A stretch of 44,309 bases of DNA from Acidobacteriota bacterium (GTDB taxonomy: Bacteria; Acidobacteriota; Terriglobia; Terriglobales; Acidobacteriaceae): contig JAHFUA010000007.1 of the NCBI GenBank assembly GCA_023265315.1, positions 1 through 44,309 on the forward strand, in the 5' to 3' direction. Below, piece by piece: positions 4,316 to 4,539 of the stretch (positions are counted from its first letter, which is position 1; each line of letters opens with the position of its first letter). The translations under genes and the position numbers were made by a program. The notes below the pieces were generated by a model that was given only the letters and a program-made list of their open reading frames with translations, did no database searches and was not told the DNA's origin.

Positions 4316-4344
4316 TTGACAACCCCGGCTCCTGCGCGTAGAAA
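4316..4344 (+). promoter_or_regulatory. Sigma-70-type promoter of the met leader
   Basis: TTGACA at 4316-4321 and TAGAAA at 4339-4344 are separated by exactly 17 nt. This is a consensus -35 box and a near-consensus -10 box. Transcription would start near 4351, about 7 nt before the leader-peptide ATG at 4358, so the leader peptide would be almost leaderless. No Shine-Dalgarno is seen in that gap. Confidence 0.7.
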
Positions 4345-4357
4345 TAAACGATTGAAT

Positions 4358-4438
4358 ATGTCGCACTCGACCTTCATTTGCGGAAGCATTTGCATTATGG
4401 CCATGGCCATGTGCATGCCCGCGAATTGTGGGTCGTGA
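4358..4438 (+). CDS. Met/Cys-rich leader peptide (26 aa)
   Basis: ATG at 4358 to TGA at 4436-4438 encodes 26 residues, of which Met 1, 14, 16, 18, 20 and Cys 8, 12, 19, 24 make up nine. The core reads CIMAMAMCMPANC. Such a concentration of the two rarest sulfur amino acids, directly upstream of methionine biosynthesis genes and a terminator, is the hallmark of a ribosome-mediated attenuation leader like trpL or hisL. It lies just after a consensus promoter and ends inside the antiterminator strand (4428-4436), so a ribosome reaching the stop codon would cover that strand. Stalling at the Met/Cys codons would leave it free. The peptide itself need not have another function. Confidence 0.8.
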   Translation: MSHSTFICGSICIMAMAMCMPANCGS

Positions 4439-4486
4439 TCGGAGCCAAGCGACAGTAGCTCACTAACAAGCTCTCAGACGACCCAC
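4428..4486 (+). promoter_or_regulatory. Antiterminator pairing of the met attenuator
   Basis: GTGGGTCGT at 4428-4436 is identical to part of the 3' arm of the downstream terminator. It is therefore perfectly complementary to the 5' arm, ACGACCCAC at 4478-4486 (9 bp). Pairing of these two would prevent the terminator. The first strand overlaps the last codons and stop of the leader peptide. A weaker possible protector, CGACC near 4368-4372 in the early leader codons, could pair with GGTCG at 4431-4435. Confidence 0.7.
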
Positions 4487-4512
4487 GATGATTCGTGGGT
4501 CGTTTCGTTTTT
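4476..4512 (+). terminator. Intrinsic terminator (attenuator) upstream of metY
   Basis: A perfect 11-bp stem, ACGACCCACGA (4478-4488) with TCGTGGGTCGT (4493-4503), has a 4-nt loop TGAT. It can be extended by G-T and A-T pairs at its base and is followed by TTCGTTTTT (4504-4512). It lies between the leader-peptide stop and the metY start at 4540, so it would end transcription before the structural genes unless the alternative pairing forms. Confidence 0.85.
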
Positions 4513-4539
4513 ACCGGCATCTTTTGCGAGGAGAAGATC

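Follow-up and report, generated by a model that had tools for sequence, protein, structure and literature searches.

The window analysed here, a stretch of 44,309 nucleotides from an Acidobacteriota bacterium of the family Acidobacteriaceae, contains the adjacent genes metY and metX, the latter starting 2 nt past the metY stop codon, and, in front of metY, a promoter, a short open reading frame (ORF) dense in Met and Cys codons and an intrinsic terminator (Table 1). A previous examination of the letters and open reading frames of this DNA alone (hereafter the sequence-only reading) had proposed that these elements constitute a ribosome-mediated attenuator with a Met/Cys leader peptide that controls metY-metX. 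The promoter hexamers match 10 of 12 consensus positions across a 17-nt spacer, in agreement with the consensus promoter of that reading; a strict sigma-70 scan did not return this promoter because its -10 hexamer, TAGAAA, lacks the final T. The terminator comprises 11 perfect pairs (4478-4488 with 4493-4503), is extendable to 13 pairs and is followed by TTTCGTTTTT; both the 11-bp stem and the T-run before metY described previously are present, and a scan of positions 3500-7500 identified this terminator as the sole terminator-like site. When the whole region was compared with plasmids, the best match was 14% and covered part of metY only.

Table 1. Features of the metY-metX locus of the window and leaders of the same type elsewhere in the family (gene names by NCBIfam unless marked as assigned by sequence resemblance)
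Feature	Location	Strand	Basis
Sigma-70-type promoter: TTGACA (4316-4321), 17-nt spacer, TAGAAA (4339-4344)	4316..4344	+	sequence; same arrangement in orthologues
Leader ORF MSHSTFICGSICIMAMAMCMPANCGS, 26 codons	4358..4438	+	sequence; Met/Cys-dense leaders in 37/45 orthologue upstreams
Region 1, putative protector strand; its pairing with region 2 encloses the sensor codons	about 4368..4383	+	MFE fold; own vs permuted 1:2 pairing
Putative sensor codons Cys-Ile-Met-Ala-Met-Ala-Met-Cys-Met	4391..4417	+	family-conserved core, indels in frame only, TGC/TGT interchange
Region 2, antiterminator strand ATTGTGGGTCGT	4425..4436	+	complementarity; duplex z
Region 3, terminator 5' arm and partner of region 2	4478..4489	+	complementarity, covariation
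Region 4, terminator 3' arm (4493-4503) and T-run to 4512	4493..4512	+	complementarity, covariation
metY Shine-Dalgarno motif AGGAGA	4529-4534	+	
metY, O-acetylhomoserine aminocarboxypropyltransferase (homocysteine synthase)	4540..5901	+	NCBIfam NF006096 above cut-off, Pfam PF01053
metX, homoserine O-acetyltransferase	5904..7034	+	NCBIfam NF001209 above cut-off
Mixed Met/Cys leader before siroheme methyltransferase/cysD	L193		
Mixed Met/Cys leader before cysDN	L201, L245		L245 by sequence resemblance
Mixed Met/Cys leader before NirA/sulfite-reductase-like gene	L202		
Mixed Met/Cys leader before SsuA-type transporter	L195		
Mixed Met/Cys leader before unnamed gene, then SfnG-like monooxygenase	L196, L206		SfnG-like gene below its cut-off
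Nearly pure Cys leader before cysK-cysE	L200		
Nearly pure Cys leader before sulfate-transport-like operon	L229, L240		by sequence resemblance
Cys-rich leader RLCMCCSCACPCDMC before unnamed gene, then cysE	L212; genome of the window, contig C135, around 17182-17328		
Thr/Ile/Met leader before hom alone, lysC-hom, hom-metX or hom-metY	L194, L197, L205, L208		
Thr/Ile/Met leader before thrC	L203		
His leader (HRHHRHAHHHH) before hisG-hisD or his genes	L211; L230, L232, L238		L211 hisG-hisD; others by resemblance
Pro leader (PSPLPCTPP) before proBA	L210		
Pro-rich leader before proC-like gene	L234		by resemblance
Tyr leader (YAYYYYA) before phenylalanine hydroxylase (phenylalanine 4-monooxygenase)	L199, L204		

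The leader ORF extends from an ATG at 4358 to a TGA at 4436-4438 and contains five Met codons (the initiator counted) and four Cys codons, exactly as stated in the sequence-only reading. No Shine-Dalgarno motif precedes the leader ATG, and the predicted 5' UTR consists of a few nucleotides, a feature that the sequence-only reading had overlooked. In the window, the ATG lies 13 nt past the -10 hexamer and an in-frame TTG is located at 4352, 7 nt past it; among 40 leaders, the distance from the -10 hexamer to the ATG is 6-9 nt in 25 and 10-14 nt in nearly all of the others. Given this short spacing (usually about 7 nt), transcription is expected to start at the ATG or within a few nucleotides of it, and the leader is probably translated leaderless, with almost no 5' UTR and no Shine-Dalgarno motif. 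The promoter is located 5' of the leader, just before its ATG, in nearly all relatives, so that a start of transcription downstream of the leader, which the sequence-only reading had named as an argument against its proposal, appears improbable from the sequence.

The conservation of the leader, another feature that the sequence-only reading had not recognised, was analyzed across the family: among 150 genomes, 45 encode a close MetY orthologue (at least 72% identity). The upstream regions compared, also 45 in number, include those of the nearest named relatives, a Granulicella MAG and an Acidobacteriaceae MAG, and exclude those cut by contig ends. A Met/Cys-dense leader, defined by at least 5 Met or Cys residues within 10 codons (for example, MSLDAHNSTMAMCICMCICGRGLW, MFDVAHNTTMAMCTMIMCMPRGLW and MLNSGKRGMGAMAMCMCMACGPVR), is present in 37 of these 45 regions, compared to 0.56% of shuffles (1,800, preserving dinucleotides); outside the family, 2 of 98 MetY homologues have one. 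Loss of the Met/Cys codons among relatives, another observation that was said to contradict the proposal, is accordingly not what we found. The cores contain 134 ATG, 52 TGC and 24 TGT codons, with occasional Ala, Ile and other codons, and differ in length by 3, 6 or 9 nt only; given this codon content and the restriction of indels to multiples of three, translation must read the core codon by codon. Met and Cys follow each other in different orders (MAMCMCM, MSMRMPM, CMICMC), the other residues vary freely, and conservation is poor from the core to the terminator. No convincing leader was found upstream of a few close orthologues (L005, L006, L022); in two more genomes (L007, L010), there is no leader directly before metY and a leader is located upstream of hom in a hom-metY operon (L208, L194). 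Outside the family, metY leaders with Met/Cys codons and terminators were observed in Eremiobacterota (L087) and in another family of Acidobacteriota (L140, L143), with the sequences MDARSMAIMAMCATREGRC and AVRICMCMCSMSG.

Two mutually exclusive pairings can be traced in the leader RNA. The last nucleotides of the ORF (4425-4436) nearly repeat the terminator 3' arm, and the 9-nt antiterminator strand that the sequence-only reading had placed across the leader stop codon is perfectly complementary to the terminator 5' arm (4428-4436 with 4478-4486); over a longer stretch (4425-4436 with 4478-4489), 11 of 12 nt are complementary, and the duplex of regions 2 and 3 has a z-score of -4.6 relative to shuffles. 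That reading had also suggested folding the RNA and searching related genomes for compensatory changes. The RNA from 4351 to 4515 folds 4.9 standard deviations better than shuffles (z -4.9), and its minimum free energy (MFE) fold adds a third element, a putative protector strand (about 4368-4383) that pairs with the stretch containing the antiterminator strand and thereby encloses the Met/Cys codons in a hairpin. In an alignment of 34 sequences (A2), the nine pairs of the terminator stem are paired in 90.5% of cells, with 52 cells changed on both sides vs 20 in shuffles, and this signal is clearly lost when the stem is slid along the alignment. The pairings that involve region 2 were assessed by a permutation test, chosen after a cross-species ranking of the antiterminator arms had given a mixed picture and yielding p-values that retain the relatedness among species: the 2:3 pairing reaches -16.1 kcal/mol with own partners vs -13.6 with permuted ones (p 5e-5), and the 1:2 pairing of pre-core with post-core sequence -23.2 vs -17.6 kcal/mol (p 5e-5), being individually significant in 14 of the 34 species. 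Instead of being lost in relatives, which would have spoken against the attenuator, the antiterminator pairing is kept with species-specific sequence.

The effect of ribosome position was modelled by folding each transcript as far as the terminator loop while masking a ribosome-sized stretch at every codon in turn, for three footprint sizes, and computing the probability that the leader holds the terminator 5' arm, P(antiterminator). On average, P(antiterminator) is 0.78 while the ribosome occupies the first codons of the core and falls to 0.33-0.40 past the core, a drop seen with all three footprint sizes; for the window, the values are 0.75-0.80 with the ribosome on the core and 0.08 once it is at the stop codon. 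Ribosomes halted upstream of the core also give antitermination in this model, as in any attenuator. With no ribosome, P(antiterminator) is 0.78 in the window and near 0 in five relatives (L008, L009, L011, L034, L045). Given that the free RNA of the window favours the antiterminator, termination would require a ribosome at the stop codon, and, given the difference between species, loss of leader translation is predicted to cause read-through in some of them and termination in others.

With a codon-enriched ORF, an intrinsic terminator and a mutually exclusive antiterminator pairing, the locus has the anatomy of an attenuator. Sequence and folding together make it highly probable that this is a ribosome-mediated attenuator of the trp/his type which adjusts metY-metX expression to the availability of charged Met-tRNA and Cys-tRNA; the central proposal of the sequence-only reading is thereby supported by the parts, their conservation, the covariation, the species-specific pairing and the masked folding. 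In the scenario that we propose, RNA polymerase would begin transcription on the leader ATG or immediately ahead of it, and ribosomes would load without a Shine-Dalgarno motif. When charged tRNA is ample, the ribosome would clear the Met/Cys codons and reach the stop codon, where it would either cover the antiterminator strand (in the species of the window) or allow the protector hairpin to re-form (in relatives); with the antiterminator unavailable, the terminator would form and transcription would end before metY. When Met-tRNA or Cys-tRNA is scarce, the ribosome would stall on the Met/Cys codons, mask the protector strand and free the antiterminator strand, which would capture the terminator 5' arm, such that the polymerase would read into metY-metX.

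Leaders of the same type also precede other operons. A covariance model derived from alignment A2 was run on the genome of the window and on 100 genomes of the family, and the matches, which were chosen by score and judged by eye and therefore do not amount to a statistical census, include leaders before genes of sulfur, aspartate-family, His, Pro and Tyr metabolism (Table 1). Matches with Met/Cys leaders are partly expected because the model was trained on such leaders, whereas those with other amino acids are unexplained by the training. The match between the leader codons and the downstream pathway is the best independent argument that the codons act as a sensor. An interpretable leader is absent in some of the matches (L209, L236, L243, L246, L247), and four weak matches in the genome of the window (L158-L161) were rejected as leaders because they look coding or consist of a terminator only. 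Elsewhere in that genome (contig C164, around 2833; L162), a leader, AILLRLLIVMVTATAVRL, and a terminator precede an aspartokinase-like gene; at another locus (L235), a Cys-rich leader, MNGTAYTPMCTCCRCRCQCAARVCSGSES, and a terminator precede a peroxiredoxin-like gene.

The distribution of riboswitches was compared with that of the peptide leaders. An Rfam scan of the window detected no riboswitch or T-box, the sole match being one tRNA, and neither SAM-I nor SAM-II matched anywhere in the genome of the window. Upstream of metY in other families of Acidobacteriota, there is no such leader and there is a conserved block, CGTGGCGATTTAGGCAACTTGCTCCACG..TAAAAACTGCTAAAG, whose alignment to the core of SAM-II stays under the Rfam cut-off (E 0.0028 in L136). 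This block lies about 100-250 nt upstream of metY (L132-L136, L139, L054), is followed by a terminator in most of these loci and is likely to be a SAM-II variant. Among 149 genomes of the phylum, SAM-II exceeds its cut-off elsewhere in 11, and in none of the sampled members of the family. SAM-I was found in 75 of the 150 family genomes, namely in 9 of the 45 with a close MetY vs 66 of the 105 without one (Fisher p 2e-6, uncorrected for phylogeny). In the five SAM-I loci with a readable downstream gene (L263, L265, L266, L269, L270), that gene is threonine-synthase-like and resembles the thrC of L203, which has a peptide leader instead; a similar gene in L248 also has a peptide leader. Beyond Acidobacteriota, in Bacteroidetes/Ignavibacteria (L114, L124), Met/Cys leaders (MCCCCMMMHRSSRKDTA; MAMCLSCMMMCSSTRMVSA) with a terminator of their own precede a SAM-I riboswitch in a tandem arrangement upstream of metY, and two tandem Met/Cys leaders with terminators, without an Rfam riboswitch, occur in Melioribacter (L126); these leaders apparently have independent origins.

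Three other explanations of the metY leader have to be weighed. The attenuator might be mainly a Met sensor in which the Cys codons are incidental or weakly sensed, as could be surmised from the 134 ATG vs 76 TGY codons in the cores, from the production of homocysteine and methionine by the downstream genes and from a subgroup of MSMRMPMC-type leaders with a single core Cys. Nearly all cores, however, keep at least one Cys codon, with TGC and TGT interchanging, and the leaders of sulfate assimilation mix Met and Cys whereas that of cysK-cysE is nearly pure Cys, as if the composition were tuned; we consider a predominantly Met-sensing leader unlikely, albeit a scenario of some weight.

Far less probable is an arrest peptide or metal-thiol sensor, in which the Met/Cys-rich nascent peptide would stall the ribosome upon binding a ligand such as copper, a sulfur metabolite or an oxidant. 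The free variation of the residues other than Met and Cys and the variable order of these two are difficult to reconcile with such a peptide, and the His, Pro, Tyr and Thr/Ile leaders before matching pathways fit codon starvation rather than a single ligand, even though MAMCMCM would be a chemically possible metal ligand and a Cys-rich leader of this type precedes the peroxiredoxin-like gene. It is also very improbable that the region is a riboswitch-like structured RNA or a constitutive terminator-bearing 5' UTR with a coincidental ORF: notwithstanding the strong fold of the RNA and the fact that, in relatives, a SAM riboswitch or SAM-II-like element precedes these or further genes related to Met, the locus has no Rfam match, the stretch from the core to the terminator lacks a conserved aptamer-like block, and the in-frame indels and codon conservation indicate selection on the ORF. 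Ribosome-mediated attenuation by Met and Cys codons remains the preferred explanation.

The mechanism itself, Yanofsky-type attenuation, is already known; what appears to be new is the sensor and the bacterial group that hosts it, together with the likely leaderless translation and the occurrence of such leaders throughout the family. Like the enterobacterial trp, his, thr, ilv, leu and phe attenuators, the metY leader combines an ORF rich in product codons with protector, antiterminator and terminator strands and a terminator before the first gene; unlike these, it reads Met and Cys, is apparently leaderless, occurs in Acidobacteriota and has the antiterminator strand inside the ORF, just past the sensor codons. 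SAM-I and SAM-II riboswitches likewise shut off Met genes by termination once enough end product has accumulated but sense SAM through an aptamer. The metL leader of Streptomyces lividans (...GARCMCRRMCAF; MSTTSDRTPATEATTTPGARCMCRRMCAF) shares with the metY leader interleaved Met and Cys codons and a methionine gene downstream and has a leaderless transcript, as predicted for metY, but precedes a Met transporter, metNIQ, instead of biosynthetic genes, has no clear intrinsic terminator and was presented as dependent on methionine and as containing several methionines and threonines, rather than as a sensor of both Met and Cys (PMC8079986). Polycysteine leaderless short ORFs are known in mycobacteria (Seliverstov 2005, PMC1262725; Canestrari 2020, as relayed in PMC13236596) and resemble the metY leader in their Cys codons and association with sulfur genes; they differ in reading Cys only, and the 2005 comparative study reports no conserved intrinsic terminator (PMC1262725). 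The comparatively predicted attenuator uORFC-8-2 of Rhodobacterales has tandem Cys codons and a terminator stem but is limited to Cys, precedes cysS and belongs to alphaproteobacteria (PMC8632094).

In a 2010 survey, the predicted attenuators of Acidobacteriota were almost without assigned function (PMC2965389). The literature searched, which largely excludes subscription papers and could thus miss an earlier mention, did not yield any account of Met/Cys attenuation at metY or any functionally assigned attenuator in Acidobacteriota, and searches on Met leaders, Acidobacteria and tRNA-gene attenuators gave nothing closer than metL, the polycysteine ORFs and uORFC-8-2. The assertion of the sequence-only reading that a peptide attenuator for Met and Cys is little described accordingly holds for metY and needs to be qualified in general, with metL of S. 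lividans and the mycobacterial polycysteine leaders as precedents; the dual Met/Cys sensor on metY and the family-wide set appear undescribed in the searchable literature.

One of the leaders is followed by a tRNA gene instead of a protein-coding gene: in L207 (210-497; identical to L213), a tRNA-Cys gene, identified with ARAGORN, lies directly past the terminator. A search with this tRNA revealed two more genomes, both from another genus, in which a Cys-rich leader precedes tRNA-Cys (L214, L215). The leaders of the three genomes are SMCMCCCMCGRAG, NACCACMCYAH and NACCACSCCCAH; a terminator is recognised in L207 and L214, and L215 contains a similar inverted repeat that the terminator scan did not score. 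No obvious operon was seen downstream of tRNA-Cys at these loci. Judging from this arrangement, the Cys-rich leader could possibly act as an attenuator on the tRNA-Cys gene. To our knowledge, a tRNA gene would be a new class of target for a leader-peptide attenuator.

Tentatively, and with somewhat less than even confidence, we suggest that a network of leaderless attenuators controls much of the sulfur, aspartate-family, His, Pro and Tyr metabolism in this family. The mixed codons of the network would serve as a combinatorial sensor, with Met and Cys reporting on sulfur input, Thr/Ile/Met codons serving hom and nearly pure Cys serving cysK-cysE; the network would extend to tRNA-Cys and would replace SAM riboswitches gene by gene. 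If so, scarcity of charged tRNA-Cys would raise the transcription of tRNA-Cys itself. Acidobacteriota are abundant soil bacteria, and the Met/Cys leader of metY, along with the matching leaders elsewhere, would offer a ready explanation for the control of sulfur amino acids in this phylum. The set of leaders may also serve as a natural series for examining how mixtures of codons tune sensing, and the same kind of gene would be under riboswitch control in one group and under peptide control in another.
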